A stretch of 54,331 nucleotides of DNA from Candidatus Omnitrophota bacterium (lineage in GTDB: Bacteria > Omnitrophota > Gorgyraeia > Aquiviventales > Aquiviventaceae), in contig JACPSR010000142.1 of the NCBI GenBank assembly GCA_016193175.1, positions 1 to 54,331 on the forward strand, read 5' to 3'. Positions 12,417 through 37,534 of this stretch are shown one piece after another. The position numbers and the translations under genes were made by a program. Each line of letters starts with the position of its first letter. The first letter of the stretch is position 1. Below the pieces are notes generated by a model. It worked only from the letters and a program-made list of their open reading frames with translations. It ran no database searches and was not told the DNA's origin.

Positions 12417-13097
12417 ATGAACTCCAGTACCTACCGGGACATGCATCTCTTGAACGAGCTGACCTCCAGTCCCGGGGTGACCCAGCGAGAGCTCTCCAAG
12501 CGCATCGGCGTGGCCTTGGGGCTCACCAACCTCATGCTGCGCCGACTGGCCAAAAAAGGCTACATCAAGATCACGGGGACCAAACGCAGCCGCATCCGCT
12601 ATCTCATCACGCCGCAGGGCATCCTCGAGAAGACCCGCCTGACGTACGAGTTTATCCACTACTCCATGCAATTGTACGGTGGCGTGCGCCGCTTCCTGCG
12701 CGAGCGGCTGGCGATCTTGGCACGAGCCGGCGACCGACGGATTCTGCTTTACGGGACCGATGAGCTGGCCGAGATCGCTTTTCTCATCACTCAGGAGATG
12801 GGACTCGAATTGGTGGGCATCGTCGAAGAGCCTCCCACATGGCAGCGATTTCTTGGTCATTCGGTCCTCACGATCGGGGCGGTGTCCTCGCTGAGCTATG
12901 ATCGGATCATTGTGGCCTCGTTACGGGATCGGCGCGCACAGATCCAACAGTTGGTGGCGCTGGGGGTGAGTCCGGAGCGGATGATCATTCTGCCGATCCC
13001 CGGCATGCCGCTCGATCTGGAGGGGATCGTCGCAGCGCCGGCCACGGCGACGTGGGTTCCGGCAGACCTGGCGTTGACTCCGGGAGGCGCACCGTGA
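12417..13097 (+). CDS. MarR-like winged-helix regulator fused to a Rossmann-like (PglD_N/CoA-binding-like) domain
   Basis: N-term LLNELTSSPGVTQRELSKRIGVALGLTNLMLRRLAKKGYIKI; C-term RILLYGTDELAEIAFLITQEMGLELVGIVEE...YDRIIVASL. Confidence 0.7.
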   Translation: MNSSTYRDMHLLNELTSSPGVTQRELSKRIGVALGLTNLMLRRLAKKGYIKITGTKRSRIRYLITPQGILEKTRLTYEFIHYSMQLYGGVRRFLRERLAILARAGDRRILLYGTDELAEIAFLITQEMGLELVGIVEEPPTWQRFLGHSVLTIGAVSSLSYDRIIVASLRDRRAQIQQLVALGVSPERMIILPIPGMPLDLEGIVAAPATATWVPADLALTPGGAP

Positions 13098-13235
13098 TCC
13101 CACGCCCTGGCTGTCCCGCCGAAGGCGGGGCCAAACACCACGTGACGTACGACCAAAGGCAACTAGCCTCTGTGAATGCAGACTCCGAGAGTTTGGCGGG
13201 TTCGCCATGGGCGAACCCCAGCCAGGGCGTGGGAT
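13097..13235. repeat. Stop-to-start palindromic junction element, copy C
   Basis: Outer IR ATCCCACGCCCTGGCTG (13097-13113) / CAGCCAGGGCGTGGGAT (13219-13235); hairpins CCCGCC-GAA-GGCGGG (13115-13129) and GGGTTCGCC-ATG-GGCGAACCC (13198-13218). Confidence 0.85.
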
Positions 13236-14256
13236 GAAGCGCGTCCTGATCACGGGCGGTGCCGGCTACGTCGGCTGCATGGTGGTCCCCAAGTTACTGG
13301 AAGCCGGCTACGCCGTCGTGGTCTACGACCTGATGCTGTTTGGCTCACATGGCTTGCCCACCCACCCGCACCTGCGCGTTGTCGAAGCAGACATCCGAGA
13401 TACGGCGCGGTTCTCTTCAGCCCTCGACGGCGTGCACAGTGTGATCCACTTGGCGTGCATTTCCAACGATCCAAGTTTTGAATTGGATTCGGCGTTGGGC
13501 AAGTCGATTAACTTTGACTGCTTTGACTCCTTGGTGGCTGCCTGCCGGTCGGCCGGGGTACGACGTTTCATCTACGCCTCGACCAGTTCCGTGTATGGGC
13601 TCAGCGACGCTCCGGAGGTGAGCGAGGAGCATCCCCTGGCCCCGCTGACGGACTACAGCCGGTACAAAGCCTTGTGTGAACCGATCCTGCTGCGTTACCA
13701 ATCCCCTGAGTTCACCACGGTGGTGCTCAGACCGGCGACGGTCTGCGGCTACTCACCGCGCATGCGCTTTGACTTGACGGTCAACATCCTGACGAATCAC
13801 GCGGTGAACCGTCGCGTCATCACGATCTTTGGAGGATCCCAGCGGCGCCCCAACATGCACATTGACGATCTGGCGGAACTGTATGTGCAGCTCCTGCAGG
13901 TTCCTGATGACCTCGTGGCCGGAGAGGTGTTTAACGCCGGCTACCAGAACCGCACGGTGGCGGACCTTGCGGAGATGGTTCGCCGTGTCGTTGAACGCGA
14001 GATTCCTGAGACAATCCCCATCCAGATTCAGACGAGCCCGACGGATGATCTCCGGTCGTACCATATTTCGTCCAAGAAGATCGCTCAGCGACTCAGGTTT
14101 ATTCCCAAGCGGACGATCGAGGATGCCATCCGTGATCTCTGCCGCGCCTTCAAGGCAGGGAAACTCCCGAACAGCCTCACGGACGAGCGGTACGTGAACG
14201 TGAAGACGGTCAAACAGCTTGCCGCGCGCTTGCGCCTGGAGCCGGTTGGGTCATGA
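13234..14256 (+). CDS. NAD-dependent epimerase/dehydratase (extended SDR)
   Basis: [32 protein letters not shown]...YASTSSVYG...DYSRYKALCE; the upstream in-frame ATG 13207 lies in a hairpin loop, so 13234 is preferred. Confidence 0.85.
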   Translation: MKRVLITGGAGYVGCMVVPKLLEAGYAVVVYDLMLFGSHGLPTHPHLRVVEADIRDTARFSSALDGVHSVIHLACISNDPSFELDSALGKSINFDCFDSLVAACRSAGVRRFIYASTSSVYGLSDAPEVSEEHPLAPLTDYSRYKALCEPILLRYQSPEFTTVVLRPATVCGYSPRMRFDLTVNILTNHAVNRRVITIFGGSQRRPNMHIDDLAELYVQLLQVPDDLVAGEVFNAGYQNRTVADLAEMVRRVVEREIPETIPIQIQTSPTDDLRSYHISSKKIAQRLRFIPKRTIEDAIRDLCRAFKAGKLPNSLTDERYVNVKTVKQLAARLRLEPVGS

Positions 14257-14385
14257 TCCCCCCACCTACGGCGGGCTGTCAAAGACAGCCCATGCCACCT
14301 GAGCGCAGGACAAGCTGGCTCCCTCCCTACCGGAATGATGGGTGCATTGCCACGCCAAAGGCGTGGCAGCCGCAGGTGGGGGGAT
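14256..14385. repeat. Stop-to-start palindromic junction element, copy B
   Basis: Outer IR ATCCCCCCACCT (14256-14267) / AGGTGGGGGGAT (14374-14385); hairpins GGGCTGTC-AAA-GACAGCCC (14273-14291) and GCCACGCC-AAA-GGCGTGGC (14349-14367). Confidence 0.85.
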
Positions 14386-15382
14386 GAGTCCGATGCCCCC
14401 CTGTGCCGTGGTAACCGGAGGGGCAGGGTTCATCGGCAGCCACATGGTCGACCTGTTGCTCGATCAGGGCTATCAGGTCCGCGCGGTGGACAACCTCTCC
14501 TGCGGCCGCTGGGACAACCTCGCTCATCATGCCGACAATCCCCGCATGACGTTTGAGCAGCGGGACATCCGGACGCTGCGGCCTGATGAGACGCTCTTCC
14601 AGGGGGTGGAGTCCGTCTTTCATTTCGCCGGGGTCGCCGATATCGTCCCCTCCATTGAGCGGCCCGCCGACTACCTCTTGAACAATGTGATGGGAACCGT
14701 GTGTGTCCTGGAAGCCGCGCGGCACGCGAGGGCGCAGAAAGTGGTGTACGCCGCGTCCTCATCCTGCTACGGCCTTGCGACAGAACTTCCGACGACGGAG
14801 CACGCCCCGATCAGTCCGGAGTATCCGTACGCCCTGAGTAAGTTCTTAGGCGAGCAGGCGGTCCTGCACTGGGGCAAGGTGTACGGGATGCCTGTCGTGT
14901 CCCTTCGAATCTTCAACGCCTATGGCCCGCGCTCGCGCACCACCGGCGCCTATGGGGCGGTCTTTGGTGTGTTTCTGGCCCAGAAACTTGCCGGAAAGCC
15001 CTTCACGGTGGTCGGGGACGGAACCCAACGGCGGGACTTCGCGTTCGTGACGGATGTGGCGCGGGCGTTCTTCCTGGCCGCGGTATCTGACGTGGATCAC
15101 GGGGTCTTTAACGTGGGCACGGGCGCACCCCAATCGATCAACCGTCTCGTGGAGTTGCTCGGCGGCGAGGTGGTGCACATCCCAAAACGGCCCGGGGAGC
15201 CCGACTGTACGTGGGCTGACATCACGACGATCAAGCGACGTCTGGGTTGGGAATCCCACGTGTCGTTTGAAGAGGGGGTGAGGACCATGCTGGAGCGGAT
15301 CGAGGCCTGGCGCGATGCCCCCGTGTGGACGCCTGAGTCGATCGCCGAAGCCACCCAAGAATGGTTCGCATGCCTGAGATAA
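14384..15382 (+). CDS. NAD-dependent epimerase/dehydratase (UDP-glucose 4-epimerase-like SDR)
   Basis: [40 protein letters not shown]...AASSSCYG...YPYALSKFLGE; ATG 14384 at the right end of element B. Confidence 0.85.
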   Translation: MSPMPPCAVVTGGAGFIGSHMVDLLLDQGYQVRAVDNLSCGRWDNLAHHADNPRMTFEQRDIRTLRPDETLFQGVESVFHFAGVADIVPSIERPADYLLNNVMGTVCVLEAARHARAQKVVYAASSSCYGLATELPTTEHAPISPEYPYALSKFLGEQAVLHWGKVYGMPVVSLRIFNAYGPRSRTTGAYGAVFGVFLAQKLAGKPFTVVGDGTQRRDFAFVTDVARAFFLAAVSDVDHGVFNVGTGAPQSINRLVELLGGEVVHIPKRPGEPDCTWADITTIKRRLGWESHVSFEEGVRTMLERIEAWRDAPVWTPESIAEATQEWFACLR

Positions 15383-18642: not shown

Positions 18643-19492
18643 CACTCAACCGCAGACGCGCTCGGCAACAAGGCTCGATGAGCGGTCACTCGCCTTGCGG
18701 CGGACGATCGTCCGGATGATGGCGGCAGGCTCGCGAGGCCATCTCGGCTCCGCCTGCTCGCTCGTCGAGATCCTGCGGGTCCTCTACGATGAGATCCTGC
18801 GGTATGACCCGCAGCAGCCCCGCTGGCCGTTGCGGGATCGTTGCATCCTCAGCAAGGGGCATGGCTGTCTTGCGCTCTACGCCATCCTGGCCGACAAGGG
18901 GTTTTTCCCCGTGGAGGAACTCGACAAATTTTGTCACGCCGATGGGATTCTGGGAGGCCATCCAGAGCATGGCAAGGTGCCTGGGGTGGAGGCATCAACG
19001 GGAAGCCTGGGACATGGCCTGGCCATCGGGATTGGGTTTGCCCTGGCGGCTGGGCATGACCGCTTGGGACATCGGGTGTTCGTGATCATGAGCGATGGGG
19101 AATGCAACGAAGGGTCGGTCTGGGAAGCCGCGCTGTATGCGAGCAAACACCAACTGAGCCGCCTGACCGTCCTCATTGACTACAACAAGCAACAGTCCTA
19201 CGGCAGCACGTTCGAGGTCTGCGACCTGGAGCCGCTGGCCGACAAGTGGGCCGCGTTCGGTTTTGCGGTTGAAGACGTTGACGGTCATTCCCTCAGCGCC
19301 CTGCGGTCGGTCTTGACGCGAATGCCGCTGCAGTCCTCCAAACCCAGCGCGATCATCTGCCACACGATTAAGGGTAAGGGGATCCCCTACGCGGAAAGCA
19401 ACCCTGAGTGGCACCACAAGAGCAAGATCAGCGATGACGAGGTGCAGCAACTGCTCGCCGTGTTAGCGTCCCCTCCGGGAGTTTCCAGCTGA
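18614..19492 (+). CDS. Transketolase N-terminal (TPP-binding) subunit
   Basis: AAGSRGHLGSACSLVEILRVLYDEIL...ILSKGHGCLALYAILADKG...GSLGHGLAIGIGFALA...MSDGECNEGSVWEAALYASKHQL. Confidence 0.92.
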   Translation: MSGSPTLITDTQPQTRSATRLDERSLALRRTIVRMMAAGSRGHLGSACSLVEILRVLYDEILRYDPQQPRWPLRDRCILSKGHGCLALYAILADKGFFPVEELDKFCHADGILGGHPEHGKVPGVEASTGSLGHGLAIGIGFALAAGHDRLGHRVFVIMSDGECNEGSVWEAALYASKHQLSRLTVLIDYNKQQSYGSTFEVCDLEPLADKWAAFGFAVEDVDGHSLSALRSVLTRMPLQSSKPSAIICHTIKGKGIPYAESNPEWHHKSKISDDEVQQLLAVLASPPGVSS

Positions 19493-20439
19493 TGCGCAAG
19501 GCATGTCTCGAAACCGTCTACGAACTCGCCAAGCAGGATCCTCGGGTCTTTTTCATCGGCTCGGACCTTGGCGCCGGGACCTTGGAGCAGTTCAAGCGGG
19601 AGATGCCGGAGCGCTTCTTCATGGAGGGTGTCAGCGAGGCGACCGTCATCGGCGTGGCGGCCGGCCTGGCGATGGAAGGGAAGATCGCCTATGTCAACAC
19701 CATCGCCACGTTTCTCACCCGACGATGCTTCGAGCAGATCGTCGTCGATCTGTGCCTCCACAACGCCAACGTCCGCCTGATCGGCAATGGGGGAGGGCTG
19801 GTGTACGCGCCGCTGGGGCCCACGCACCTGGCCATTGACGACATCGCGATCCTCCGCGCGCTCCCCAACATGACCATCGTGGCCCCTGCCGATGCCAACG
19901 AGATGCGCCGGTTCATGCTCGCGACACTCGCCCATGAGGGACCCATCTACATTCGACTCGCCAAGGGGGGCGATCCGATCGTGACCTCTGACCAGACGCC
20001 GTTCGAGATCGGCAAGGCCGTGCCGATGCGGGAAGGTGCTGACGCGCTGATCGTCACCACCGGCATCACCCTGAAGCCCGCTCTCGATGCGGCCGCGGCG
20101 CTCAGCCAGCACGGGATTGACGCCGCCGTCCTCCATTGCCCGACGGTCAAGCCGCTCGATGTCGAGGCCCTCAGGCAGGCCGCCTCGCCTGTCTGCGCCA
20201 TTGTCACCATTGAAGAGCACACCCTGATGGGCGGGCTGGGCAGCGCCGTTGCGGAGGTGGTGGCCGAGGCGGGCTTCAATCCCGCCAAGCGGTTCACGCG
20301 AATCGGGATCCCGGATGTTTTCCCGGATCAGTACGGCTCCCAAGCAAGCCTGATGCGGCGGTATGCGATCACCGCGGAGCAGCTTGTCTCCACCGTCACC
20401 AGCCTCTTGAGCGGCGCGATGCAAGCAACCCGTTCGTGA
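19492..20439 (+). CDS. Transketolase C-terminal subunit
   Basis: MRKACLETVYELAKQDPRVFFIGSDLG...GVSEATVIGVAAGLAMEGKIAYVNTIATFLTRRCFEQI; TGATG junction with upstream gene. Confidence 0.92.
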   Translation: MRKACLETVYELAKQDPRVFFIGSDLGAGTLEQFKREMPERFFMEGVSEATVIGVAAGLAMEGKIAYVNTIATFLTRRCFEQIVVDLCLHNANVRLIGNGGGLVYAPLGPTHLAIDDIAILRALPNMTIVAPADANEMRRFMLATLAHEGPIYIRLAKGGDPIVTSDQTPFEIGKAVPMREGADALIVTTGITLKPALDAAAALSQHGIDAAVLHCPTVKPLDVEALRQAASPVCAIVTIEEHTLMGGLGSAVAEVVAEAGFNPAKRFTRIGIPDVFPDQYGSQASLMRRYAITAEQLVSTVTSLLSGAMQATRS

Positions 20440-22177: not shown

Positions 22178-23278
22178 ATGAGTTCCACAGTGACTGACCG
22201 GATGGTGAAGTTGCCAAGGCCCTATCCCGACCCTGAGTTCTTCAAGGCGACGCTGGCGGAAGGGTTTTCGGCTTTTCCAAAACGCCGGGACAATTACGAA
22301 CGATACAAAGCTGCTCAACGCGGGGAGGTCGTGGACTACCTGCCGATCCGTTTGGATATCGAGAATGTCAGCCGCTGCAACTATCACTGTACCATGTGCC
22401 AGGTCAGCGATTGGCCCGGCATGAAGCGGGCCGACGACATGACCTTTGACGACTACAAGGCGTTGATCGAAAGCCAAGAAGGGCTGGTTGAAATCAAGCT
22501 CCAGGGTATGGGCGAGCCGCTGATGGGGAAGTGCTACGTTGACATGATCCGCTTTGCCCGAGCGCGGCATCTCTGGGTGCGTTCCGTGACGAACGGGTCG
22601 CTGTTGCACCTCGCGAACAACTACCAACAGGTGATCGACGCGGATGTCTGTGAGTTCCACGTCTCAATCGATGGAGCGACTCAACAAACGTATGAGAAGA
22701 TTCGACGGGGTGGACAGTTTGAGAGGGTGATGGAGAACTGTCGACGCCTGAACCGGTACTGCCGGCAGATCAACCGCCGGCGGACGCGGATGTGGACGCT
22801 CGTGCAGAAGGACAATGTCTATGAGGTCGAGCAACTGCCTCTCCTGGCCGCTGAGCTGGGGTTTGATCGCCTCACCCTCTCGTTGGACATCAACGACTGG
22901 GGACAGGATCGCTGGCGAGCGATGAATGATCGAGTGGATGTGCACCGCAGCTTTGACCTCTCGCTGGTGGAGCGTCTGGTTGAGTTGGGCAAGGCGCGTG
23001 GAGTCGAGGTGACATTCTGGTTTATCGATGAGAAATACGACACAGATGATCCCGCCCACCTGTGCCAGTGGCCGTTTGAGCGCTTGTACATCTCCTCCGA
23101 TATGCGGATGGTCCCCTGCTGCATGATGGCCAATCCCGAGATCATGGATCTTGGGGATGCGCACGCCCTCACCACGGAATGGAATGGGGCGAAGATGGTC
23201 GCCTTCCGGCGGATGCACCTGAGCGGGCGGATTCCGAAGCCGTGTCAGTCGTGTTATAAGGCCCCTGCCCAAGGATGA
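22178..23278 (+). CDS. Radical SAM/SPASM protein
   Basis: VSRCNYHCTMCQVSDW (CxxxCxxC); C-terminal CQWPFERLYISSDMRMVPCCMMANP...CQSCYK. Confidence 0.87.
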   Translation: MSSTVTDRMVKLPRPYPDPEFFKATLAEGFSAFPKRRDNYERYKAAQRGEVVDYLPIRLDIENVSRCNYHCTMCQVSDWPGMKRADDMTFDDYKALIESQEGLVEIKLQGMGEPLMGKCYVDMIRFARARHLWVRSVTNGSLLHLANNYQQVIDADVCEFHVSIDGATQQTYEKIRRGGQFERVMENCRRLNRYCRQINRRRTRMWTLVQKDNVYEVEQLPLLAAELGFDRLTLSLDINDWGQDRWRAMNDRVDVHRSFDLSLVERLVELGKARGVEVTFWFIDEKYDTDDPAHLCQWPFERLYISSDMRMVPCCMMANPEIMDLGDAHALTTEWNGAKMVAFRRMHLSGRIPKPCQSCYKAPAQG

Positions 23279-23297
23279 GCCGCCAGCAGGTGGTGGG

Positions 23298-24464
23298 ATG
23301 ATCGAAACCTGTCCCGTGTGTGACACGGTGTTGCAAGAGCCGGTCTGGGTGCTCGAGCGCGTGCCCATCCTCCCGATGCTACGGCTTGACGAGTTGCCAC
23401 AGGCGGACCATTTCGCCACGCTCGAGGTGGTCCGGTGCCAGATGTGCGGCCATCTGTACAACCGGGCATACCATGCGGCCCTGGCCGACCGCATGTATCG
23501 CGGCGAGCTCTTGAGTAATGTGCCGGTGCATGTGACCATGACGAAGAACCTCGAGCAGATAGCGGACTGGATCGGTCGGTCCCAGTACGCGGACAAGCGG
23601 GTAATCGAGATCGGCGCAGGGAGCGGGCATCTGGCCCGCATCCTGGCACAGGTGGCCACGCAGGTACAGATCTTTGAGCCGTGCCGGGGTCTGCGAGCCG
23701 AGATGCTGCCGGAAGCGAACATCACCGTGATCCACGAGCCCTTTTCGTCGTCCGCCGTCGATCGGCCAGCGGACCTCATCGTCTGCCGCCAGGTGTTGGA
23801 GCATGTCGCGGATCCATTGGCGATGCTGCGGGACATCCGCGCGGCGCTCTCGGCGACGGGGTCGATCTATCTGGAAGTCCCTCGCGCAGAGTACATCGAA
23901 GAGCACGCCGCATTATTTGATCTCCATTACGCCCACGTCCAGTACTTTCACGAGCCGAACCTATTGAGATTGGCGGCCCGGGCCGGGTTCCAGGTCGTAC
24001 AGTCCTGGTGCCTCAAACAGGGGCATGACATGGGGGTCTTGTTGCGTCCACAACATTCTGTGACCGCGCAGGGGTTGGGCTTGGTCACGCACGACGCGGA
24101 GGGATTGCGTAGAGGTCTTGAGGGTCGTCGGGCTCTGGGCCACGCCTGGTTGAACTCGTTGGAGGGGACAGTCAGTCTCTACGGTGCTACGGCACAAGGC
24201 GTGGCGTTCCTTCACGTCTTCCAGTCTCATCGTCGATTTACGGCCGTCGCCGACGATAACCCTGCCTACGCGGGGTACGCGCTCTACACCACTGGACAAT
24301 CCGTTCCAATCGTGGATCCAACCCATGAGGCCATTCGCCGTTCCGATCATCTCATTATCACGGCCTACCTCCATGATGAGATCATTGCGGAGCGGTTGAG
24401 AGCCATCGGGTTCTCGGGCCGGATCTTCAGTATCAGGGAAGAAGCGCTGGCTCCTGCAGCATGA
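23298..24464 (+). CDS. Zinc-finger/SAM C-methyltransferase-type protein
   Basis: CPVCDTVLQEPVW...VRCQMCGHLYNRAYH...VIEIGAGSGHLARILAQ...CRQVLEHVADPLAML; C-terminal YGATAQGVAFLHVF region. Confidence 0.82.
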   Translation: MIETCPVCDTVLQEPVWVLERVPILPMLRLDELPQADHFATLEVVRCQMCGHLYNRAYHAALADRMYRGELLSNVPVHVTMTKNLEQIADWIGRSQYADKRVIEIGAGSGHLARILAQVATQVQIFEPCRGLRAEMLPEANITVIHEPFSSSAVDRPADLIVCRQVLEHVADPLAMLRDIRAALSATGSIYLEVPRAEYIEEHAALFDLHYAHVQYFHEPNLLRLAARAGFQVVQSWCLKQGHDMGVLLRPQHSVTAQGLGLVTHDAEGLRRGLEGRRALGHAWLNSLEGTVSLYGATAQGVAFLHVFQSHRRFTAVADDNPAYAGYALYTTGQSVPIVDPTHEAIRRSDHLIITAYLHDEIIAERLRAIGFSGRIFSIREEALAPAA

Positions 24465-34945: not shown

Positions 34946-35778
34946 ACAACGCGCCAGTCTTGGTAACCGGAGCCCATGGATTTTTGGGCCGCAATGTTGT
35001 TGAAGCGCTGAACGATTTCAAGGTCTTTGCCCCTCCTCGCAGCGAACTGGATTGCCGTGATGTTGGGGAGCTATCCGATTATGTCGCTCGTCACGCCATT
35101 CGATTCGTGGTGCATTGCGCCGGGCCGGGCACGCAGCCAAAGCGCGACGAGCCCGGCTGTTTCGACAACATCGTCGGTATGTTTTTCAATCTCGTGCGGC
35201 TGCGAGAGCGGTTTGACAAGGTCATTTGCGTAGGAACGGGCCATGAGTTTCTCGCGCAAGGCCGTCTGAGTGATCTGCCCTGCGTGAAGAGCTACCGGCT
35301 TCTGCCTGAGAATCTGTATGGCTTCGCCAAGCTGATCTGCAACAACTTCATCCATGACCATGGGCTGCAGAACTTCATCAATGTGCGCATCTTCTACGCG
35401 TTTGGCAAGCATGAGGATCCCGACGCGCGTCTCATGCCGCGTGCAATCAGCCATCTGCTGGACAACACAGACGTCTTCATCGATCACGATGCGTTGTTGA
35501 GCTTCATCTACGCCACGGATTTCGCGCGGTTCATCGCCACGCTGCTCACGGCTGAGCGGTATCGCGCGAGCTATCACGCCTGCTACCGGCAGCCGATGCG
35601 CCTGAGCGCCCTCTTGGCGCAAGCGAAGGATCTGTGCGGTTCACGCTCCAAGATCGTCATGCAAGATCGCCGTTGCGAGGTCTACACGTCAGCGGCTTAC
35701 TTGCCAGGCTTTCAGCACAGCGAGAAGAATGTGGTTGAACTCCTTGAGCATTACACGCAACCGGCGGTCGCGGCATGA
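34942..35778 (+). CDS. NAD-dependent epimerase/reductase (SDR; ColC-like candidate)
   Basis: [37 protein letters not shown]...NLYGFAKLICNNFI. Confidence 0.78.
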   Translation: MNNAPVLVTGAHGFLGRNVVEALNDFKVFAPPRSELDCRDVGELSDYVARHAIRFVVHCAGPGTQPKRDEPGCFDNIVGMFFNLVRLRERFDKVICVGTGHEFLAQGRLSDLPCVKSYRLLPENLYGFAKLICNNFIHDHGLQNFINVRIFYAFGKHEDPDARLMPRAISHLLDNTDVFIDHDALLSFIYATDFARFIATLLTAERYRASYHACYRQPMRLSALLAQAKDLCGSRSKIVMQDRRCEVYTSAAYLPGFQHSEKNVVELLEHYTQPAVAA

Positions 35779-36158
35779 TGCATCCCATCGAATCGTTTGC
35801 CGATGATCGCGTGCGCCGGTATTTCGACGTCTTTCCTCAACTCAGTCCCGAGCAGGTCACGGTGTCCAAAATCTCCAAAGCTGGCACGATTAACGCGTGG
35901 CATCGGCATAAGCGCCAGACCGATTGGTTCGTCGTCATCGAGGGCCGGCTGGAAGCCTTCATTCTCACCAAAGAGAAACACCTGACCCGGCATATGTTGG
36001 ACGGGGCCAGTCCGCAATGCTTGGAGATTCAGCCAGGACTCTACCACGGCTGGAAATCGCTTCAAGATAACACCATCCTGGTCTATTGCCTGAGTCACAA
36101 GCACGACGAGAAGGATGAGGAACGGGTGCCCTACGAGACGATGGGGGTGCCGCTGTGA
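35775..36158 (+). CDS. RmlC/WxcM-like cupin (sugar epimerase-like)
   Basis: SKISKAGTINAWHRHKRQTDWFVVIEGRLEAFILT...IQPGLYHGWKSLQDNTILVYCLSHKHDEKDEER. Confidence 0.83.
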   Translation: MMHPIESFADDRVRRYFDVFPQLSPEQVTVSKISKAGTINAWHRHKRQTDWFVVIEGRLEAFILTKEKHLTRHMLDGASPQCLEIQPGLYHGWKSLQDNTILVYCLSHKHDEKDEERVPYETMGVPL

Positions 36159-36300
36159 TCCCCCCACCTGCTGGCGGCAGTGCCGCCAACAACAAGAAAC
36201 AGCGAGTTGGCACTGCCGGGGTTGGCTGGCAGGTGCCCGTTACGGAGGGATGCCAACCCACGGCTCCGCCGCTGGCGGAGCCTCCAGCAGGTGGGGGGAT
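36158..36300. repeat. Stop-to-start palindromic junction element, copy A
   Basis: Outer IR ATCCCCCCACCTGCTGG (36158-36174) / CCAGCAGGTGGGGGGAT (36284-36300); hairpins GGCGGC-AGT-GCCGCC (36173-36187) and GGCTCCGCC-GCT-GGCGGAGCC (36262-36282). Confidence 0.88.
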
Positions 36301-37534
36301 GAAGCTGCGCCGCTGCCGCATGTGCCATGGCTCAAGGCTTGAAACCTATCTTGATTTGGGAGCGACTCCGCTCGCGGACGGTTTTTTGAGGGCGGATCAG
36401 CTACACGAACCTGAAGCTGTCTATCCGCTGGCGGTGGCGCTGTGCAAAAATTGTGGCCTGTCCCAATTAACCCATGTGGTCAGCCCGGAAATTCTCTACT
36501 GCCGTAATTATCCCTACGAATCCTCCACTACCGTGACCGGTCGCCAACACTGGGCCGAATTCGCAGCCACCGTGACGCGCAAATTGTCGCTTCAACGTAA
36601 GGATCTTGTCGTGGATATCGGCAGCAACGTCGGCGTGCTGTTGGCGATGTTTCGCAAGCAGGGGGTGCGCGTGGTGGGGGTTGACCCGGCTTCCAATATT
36701 GTGGCCATCGCGCGCCGGCGCGGTATCCCCACCGAGTGCGGGTTTTTTGATGTCGCGATCGCCCGCACGATCGTGACGGCATGGGGTCGAGCGGCTCTGG
36801 CGACAGCGACCAACACCTTCGCCCATATCAATGATTTGGATCGGGTTGCCCAAGCCCTCAAGATTTTGTTACAAGAAGACGGGGTGTTCGTGCTGGAAGC
36901 CCCCCATTTCTTGAGGCTGCTTCAACACCTGGAGTATGACACGATTTACCATGAGCATCTGTCGTATCTGACGGTCAAATCGCTCGCGCGATTTTTTCAT
37001 CGGTTTCGCATGGAAGTCTTTGACGTCGAAGAGCGTCCGATTCACGGAGGGTCCATCAGGGTGTACGTCCAAATGCCCAAGGGCAGGCGCCGGGTTCAAG
37101 GCATCGTCGGTCGCTTGATACGCGAGGAGGAGCGTCACGGAGCGTTCAGCCTTCAGAGGCTCAGGAAATTTGCCGCAGCCGTTCGGCAACACCGCGACGC
37201 GCTTCAGAGGCGTCTGCAATGGCTCAAACGCCAAGGCAACGTCATCGCGGGCGTCAGCGCTCCGGCCAAAGGCATGACGCTGCTGAATTACTGCCGCCTG
37301 GGCCCTGACGTGCTCGATTTCATCAGTGAAAAGTCGACACTCAAGATCGGCCGGTTTACGCCGGGGGTCCATGTCCCCGTGGTGAGCGACGAGAAGCTCC
37401 TCAAACGCCAACCAGATTACGCGCTGATTCTGGCATGGAATTTCGCACCCGAGATCATGGGCAATCTGGAATCATACCGGCGCCGCGGGGGAAAGTTTAT
37501 CATCCCGATCCCCAGGCCGCGTATCATCGCCTGA
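36299..37534 (+). CDS. NovU/TylCIII-like sugar C-methyltransferase (second copy)
   Basis: CRMCHGSRLETYLDLGATPLADGFL...LCKNCGLSQLTHVVSPEILY...VDIGSNVGVLLAMFRKQG...YHEHLSYLTVKSL...GVSAPAKGMTLLNYC. Confidence 0.87.
   Translation: MKLRRCRMCHGSRLETYLDLGATPLADGFLRADQLHEPEAVYPLAVALCKNCGLSQLTHVVSPEILYCRNYPYESSTTVTGRQHWAEFAATVTRKLSLQRKDLVVDIGSNVGVLLAMFRKQGVRVVGVDPASNIVAIARRRGIPTECGFFDVAIARTIVTAWGRAALATATNTFAHINDLDRVAQALKILLQEDGVFVLEAPHFLRLLQHLEYDTIYHEHLSYLTVKSLARFFHRFRMEVFDVEERPIHGGSIRVYVQMPKGRRRVQGIVGRLIREEERHGAFSLQRLRKFAAAVRQHRDALQRRLQWLKRQGNVIAGVSAPAKGMTLLNYCRLGPDVLDFISEKSTLKIGRFTPGVHVPVVSDEKLLKRQPDYALILAWNFAPEIMGNLESYRRRGGKFIIPIPRPRIIA

Follow-up and report, generated by a model that had tools for sequence, protein, structure and literature searches.

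How can a palindrome with a core of 139 bp sit at the junction of two genes and leave both of them intact? This question is raised by an element, here called copy A, at 36158-36300 of a 54,331-nucleotide stretch of Candidatus Omnitrophota DNA, which we call the window; all window features described below lie on its forward strand. The perfect 17-bp outer repeat reported in the preliminary description is indeed there, with ATCCCCCCACCTGCTGG as left arm (36158-36174) and CCAGCAGGTGGGGGGAT as right arm (36284-36300), and when extended it becomes a repeat of 21 bp at 95%. The right arm contains an SD-like AGGTGG before the ATG. We also recovered the inner hairpins, hairpin 1 on the left at 36173-36187 and hairpin 3 on the right at 36262-36282, where a 9-bp stem, GGCTCCGCC/GGCGGAGCC, closes a loop of 3 nt. 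This loop reads GCT in one genome and AGC in the other (orthologous hairpin L076 in the relative G022); the stem is identical and the two loops are reverse complements of each other, which resembles a flip of the loop. Rfam gave no match in the window above the gathering score, so that the element is not a known RNA family.

The element proper consists of a T, the core (36160-36298, 139 bp, 1 mod 3) and an A, and spans 36159-36299. It is flanked by a duplicated TGA, the first one (36156-36158) being the stop of the upstream gene (35775-36158, 127 aa) and the second one lying at 36300-36302. The terminal A of the element (36299) and the second TGA together give the ATG(A) that starts a C-methyltransferase gene (36299-37534). 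Additionally, a GTG at 36155 overlaps the upstream TGA and opens a frame, which we call the mini-ORF, that runs through the element and into the methyltransferase gene without a stop (36155-37534), giving a fusion frame of 459 aa (VIPPPAGG...PPAGGG-MKLRR). The same element is present at this site in both the window genome and G022, and among the distant homologues of the methyltransferase we found no close empty site. We infer that the site read GTGA before insertion.

Copy A is a member of a real family of interspersed palindromic elements, of which we collected 131 distinct copies from this genome, G022 and other relatives; these MAGs are fragmented and partly strain-mixed, and the gene calls are mechanical (ORF- and codon-based). 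The 11-mer ATCCCCCCACC, with one mismatch allowed, occurs 96 times in the genome versus 20 times for the reversed control, which together with the 131 copies shows that the repeat is not due to chance. Decayed copies are under-counted because the detector needed paired arms. A covariance model built from 18 of our own copies and used for genome searches found matches in 24 of the 27 genomes belonging to one Omnitrophota family, frequently with tens of copies per genome, and outside this family in only 4 genomes of a 197-genome sample of the class. Related elements outside the family (L304 in G067, and in G179, G147 and G054) are often shorter (about 75 bp); the elements outside the family are possibly of the in-gene type described below or the result of horizontal spread.

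The element is about 80-160 bp long. Its cores measure about 60-160 bp, too small for a transposase, and the inverted repeats at the ends are at least about 14 bp. The predicted folds are cloverleaf-like: an outer stem encloses two hairpins, one close to either end, and a central part that varies. In the 18-copy alignment, the cells of the outer stem and the two hairpins are paired in 93% versus 77% after shuffling, and double changes in the stems number 71 versus 25 in shuffles, although such covariation is partly expected of any inverted repeat. Two single copies stand apart. A variant at L235:943-1085, upstream of a gene judged by eye to be RNase PH, is without the ATGACGCCGCAA segment, and the GTG codons of its right arm are in frame with that gene and could be its start. 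The copy at L002:1446-1540 (G000 C73) lies directly 5' of an apparent tRNA gene, likewise judged by eye, and has no clear duplication.

Inside the window, the pattern TG-[ATCCC...GGGAT]-G was verified for all three copies (13097-13235, 14256-14385, 36158-36300). The second copy (13098-13234; core 13099-13233, 135 bp) lies at the junction of a winged-helix gene and an epimerase gene, between TGA duplicates at 13095-13097 and 13235-13237. Its mini-ORF is complete, running from GTG to TGA (13094-13237, 47 codons plus stop), and the stop overlaps the ATG at 13234. The third copy (14257-14384; core 14258-14383, 126 bp) separates two sugar-nucleotide epimerase/dehydratase genes, with the TGA duplication at 14254-14256 and 14385-14387 and a complete mini-ORF from ATG to TGA (14253-14387, 44 codons plus stop), whose stop overlaps the ATG at 14384. 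A remnant at 23275-23301, placed between a TGA and an ATG, retains only the right arm (23279-23298) and is still a complete 8-codon mini-ORF, ATGAGCCGCCAGCAGGTGGTGGGATGA (MSRQQVVG*). An element-free TGATG, joining the N and C halves of transketolase, exists at 19490-19494 as had been described.

Across the collection the element reads T-CCC...GGG-A (or C...G), and 114 of the 131 copies show an exact 3-bp target duplication. On the coding strand this is TGA in 103 of the 114, and CCA/TGG, TTA, CGA or TTG in the remaining 11. The preliminary description had proposed insertion into TGATG, a one-base-overlapping stop/start, with duplication of AT. Because the non-palindromic duplications (CCA, TGG, CGA, TTG, TTA) show 3 bp, a duplication of AT is excluded for the collected copies; the AT...AT ends are the T-A closing pair plus part of the TGA duplication. 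Nor did TGATG prove to be the target. Of the 65 junction copies, only 10 have it after the element. All four independent empty sites consist of a 4-nt ATGA overlap and none of TGATG, and further copies lie in frame inside genes, unrelated to TGATG. Non-TGATG empty sites and copies without relation to TGATG were the very observations that the preliminary description had named as speaking against its model, which we consequently abandon. Among the T..A copies, the first TGA is preceded by A in 71, G in 20, C in 3 and T in 2, which matches start-codon usage (ATG, GTG).

The proposal that insertion leaves both neighbouring genes intact is supported, since we found orthologous sites in filled and in empty form. 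The empty sites, all ATGA, read CGATGATC (L058), CGAATGACAG (L253, also L185), CCATGAAGATCGC (L061) and CGATGAGCC (L057, about 19610). At L061 the filled form GCATGA-T..A-TGAAAATCGCC can be set against the empty CCATGAAGATCGC; the downstream gene begins with ATG AAA ATC GCC when filled and with ATG AAG ATC GCG when empty, showing that the element leaves the start of the downstream protein unchanged. We infer that the direction of change was insertion and not precise loss. The copy B site in G022, which is without the element and reads TGATATG, is only 72% alike and hence too diverged to be judged, and L070, at 74%, is likewise too diverged to be judged as an empty site.

Five sites carry different elements in close relatives, among them the window copy at 13099 versus L204 in G022 and C145 versus C129 within one MAG, and the interiors of copies at the same site are wholly different. 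Moreover, tandem copies sharing one TGA occur at L287 and L122. Different elements at fixed sites, together with these tandem copies, indicate that turnover at fixed sites is common. The contig pairs L015/L149 (G000 C145/C129) and L003/L235 (C160/C78) are 91-98% identical and have different elements at the same site; the MAG bin that contains them probably mixes strains.

Copies whose length is 1 mod 3, so that insert plus duplication is divisible by 3, occur within genes and keep their reading frame; Pfam domains run across these inserts or are split by them. In a RibF, the flavokinase domain spans such an insert, with 153 residues over 124 profile positions, and the HhH-GPD domain of an OGG and an AsmA likewise span theirs. 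The PEPCK match falls into two stretches that part at the insert, and in a penicillin-binding protein the interruption comes close to where the match ends. By codon statistics, 9 of the 11 in-gene copies are at 1 mod 3 versus 69 of the 81 start-site copies at 0 mod 3.

The element had been described as a structured spacer. The structure holds, the untranslated kind of spacer does not, as most start-codon sites have an open reading frame through the element. The layout is gene A-NTGA-[mini-ORF]-ATGA-gene B. The mini-ORF has as its start codon the old NTG within the NTGA overlap, encodes (M)IPPP or (M)IPRP at its beginning and QVVG, QVGG or QGVG at its end, and stops at the second TGA, and the A preceding that TGA makes the new ATG. 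At the 81 start-codon sites, 67 mini-ORFs are complete, 7, copy A among them, read on in frame into the gene downstream, and 7 stop early. The shuffled null predicts a complete mini-ORF in 16% (p 4e-40), and the excess of cores at 0 mod 3 gives p 7e-22, both of which overstate independence because the copies are related (they form 41 similarity clusters, of which 24 are 0 mod 3). The mini-ORF frame contains 2 stops over the 81 sites, versus 62 and 48 in the other two frames. Where two long ORFs meet (65 junctions), 56 cores are 0 mod 3, and one frame has 4 stops versus 48 and 48 in the others.

The four CTGA junctions, which lack a start codon ahead of the element, behave differently: 1 mini-ORF is complete and 3 stop early, and the fraction of complete frames (1/4 versus 53/61 at start-codon junctions) differs with p 0.014. 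The constraint on the mini-ORF thus relaxes at CTGA junctions. A tandem pair is crossed by a single ORF of 82 codons that ends at the last ATGA, and at the L056 remnant the frame of a 528-codon upstream ORF passes through and still ends in an ATGA overlap. Solo right-arm remnants before start codons were seen at L056:12445, L148 (minus strand, about 1468) and L113:673; the frame ending at their GGATGA stop is open upstream for 528, 438 and 227 codons, respectively.

Shared MIPPP and QVVG ends could suggest that we are dealing with true small genes and functional peptides, but these ends are the translated inverted repeat, and the interiors differ wholly between copies at one site. More importantly, in 18 nearest-neighbour pairs the substitutions fall on codon positions 1, 2 and 3 as 61:75:70, and 35 of the 127 codons with a single change are synonymous (27.6% versus 28.0% expected by chance). 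Even positions and a chance-level synonymous fraction mean that the peptide is not constrained, and we reject a functional peptide, which we regard as very improbable. The elements with a neighbour contain 0 stops in 29 versus 10.6 expected under neutrality (mean 12 substitutions), from which it follows that the openness of the frame is selected. Judged by these substitution patterns, selection appears to act on the open mini-ORF and not on its product.

From the sequence comparisons, we consider the element to be quite probably a non-autonomous, MITE-like and coding-compatible palindrome at start codons, whose mini-ORF would preserve translational coupling. It would insert with a 3-bp duplication, mainly at a start codon followed by A (ATGA or GTGA) and most commonly where this forms a 4-nt overlap with the TGA stop of the upstream gene, changing NTGA into NTGA-[T CCC...GGG A]-TGA. 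At filled sites the TGA of the upstream gene is retained and the start of the downstream protein is unaltered, and the old NTG, still preceded by its own SD region, has become the start of a mini-ORF across the element. Ribosomes that end the upstream gene would reinitiate on the mini-ORF, open the stem of the element by translating it, and then reinitiate on the downstream gene, so that termination-reinitiation coupling would survive the insertion; the peptide made on the way would not be selected, only its open frame. In experiments on native gene pairs, short overlaps gave tight coupling, and setting the genes about 20 nt apart nearly eliminated it (PMC6728339, PMC10666635). An untranslated insert of 130 bp should therefore break it, since gaps of about 20 nt suffice (PMC10666635), whereas coupling should survive a mini-ORF that overlaps its neighbours on either side. 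Each end of the element recreates the native ATGA/TGATG geometry of termination-reinitiation (PMC6728339, PMC10666635), with the difference that here a mobile element supplies the intervening ORF.

The right arm could also be given a larger role. Its SD-like duplex has a mean of -9.8 kcal/mol, compared to -6.5 at native junctions and -6.8 for the original SD region upstream of the mini-ORF start. This strong SD may help the restart or, because right arms are such strong SD-like sequences, permit independent initiation of the downstream gene. Taken further, the element would be a non-coding regulatory spacer that brings a strong SD and a start, and whose stem tunes or uncouples the downstream gene, the open frame being incidental. 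The covariation of outer stem and hairpins fits such a spacer, as do the solo remnants found, which all keep the right arm and never the left. However, a spacer predicts neither lengths of 0 mod 3, nor the frame-specific loss of stops, nor the relaxation at CTGA, and we regard it as unlikely. A different question is whether the element targets start codons at all. Insertion might occur at TGA-like 3-mers anywhere, with copies elsewhere purged or decayed and those at start codons retained, as they could not be lost without loss of the start. Such retention concerns the targeting and is compatible with the coupling model; it agrees with the CCA/TGG, TTA and CGA duplications and with remnants at start codons that keep the ATG end. 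Yet closely related copies (94% or more, at different sites) are also at start codons, which leans towards targeting or very strong early selection. Moreover, a 192-kb MAG contig (C110) has about 9 copies at NTGA junctions, where 52 such junctions are free, and 0 at up to 209 non-coding, non-junction TGA/TCA sites. We rate retention alone as a serious possibility, somewhat below even.

The mobilising enzyme would act in trans. In these incomplete assemblies, the loci examined showed no transposase flanked by element ends, and no such ends turned up beside Y1, DDE_Tnp_1 or IS110 genes. REPIN/RAYT, DDE_Tnp_1 and IS110 were rejected as the mover, as their presence is not tied to the element copy number. 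A REPIN-type element moved by a RAYT (Y1) transposase would account for the two hairpins in an inverted array, a trait shared with interspersed REP/REPIN sequences. The long TIR and the 3-bp duplication set our element apart from these, and such a duplication is not expected of Y1 transposition. Additionally, several copy-rich genomes, one of them 93% complete, yielded no Y1_Tnp (e.g. G018, G020, G024, G016), which makes this origin highly unlikely.

In anatomy the element is a MITE-like palindrome: short and non-autonomous, with terminal inverted repeats, a 3-bp duplication and filled and empty sites. Bacterial MITEs with ORFs (ERIC, Correia/NEMIS, YPAL) are likewise small, non-autonomous elements with inverted ends, stable RNA folds and some ORFs fused in frame (PMC2229807). 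Most MITEs listed in that paper end in TA and are AT-rich, whereas ours is GC-rich, duplicates TGA/NNN and is placed at start codons. Its lifestyle is closest to the Rickettsia palindromic elements (RPE). These palindromes of 105-146 bp have inverted ends and contain an open frame, and they occur in intergenic DNA as well as within protein genes, where they keep the reading frame (PMC2229807, PMC10969869). Our element is palindromic too, and in frame inside RibF, OGG and PEPCK. It differs in its defined 3-bp duplication, which is marked "?" for RPE (PMC2229807), and in its main habitat, the start codon or NTGA stop/start overlap, with an ORF bounded by ATG and TGA overlaps. By description it thus works like an RPE, and we do not file it as a member, its host being Omnitrophota and not Rickettsia. 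In the open-licence literature we found no description of a start-codon/NTGA niche with a peptide-indifferent mini-ORF, and nothing relevant on Omnitrophota repeats.

In summary, we lean towards a class of mobile elements that have specialised in start codons and stop/start overlaps. They would carry a translated "transit ORF", kept open by selection although its peptide is irrelevant, so that termination and reinitiation continue unbroken along the operon. A selfish element could in this manner colonise the ATGA overlaps of a gene-dense genome without breaking the operon. Mini-ORFs that are open but indifferent to their peptide are what one expects if the passage of ribosomes is itself selected. 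The importance of translational coupling would become testable by comparative genomics over hundreds of natural insertions, and if the transit-ORF reading is true, each site, including the CTGA exceptions, is a natural experiment on coupling. Besides Rickettsia, Omnitrophota are a second lineage with palindromes in frame inside genes.
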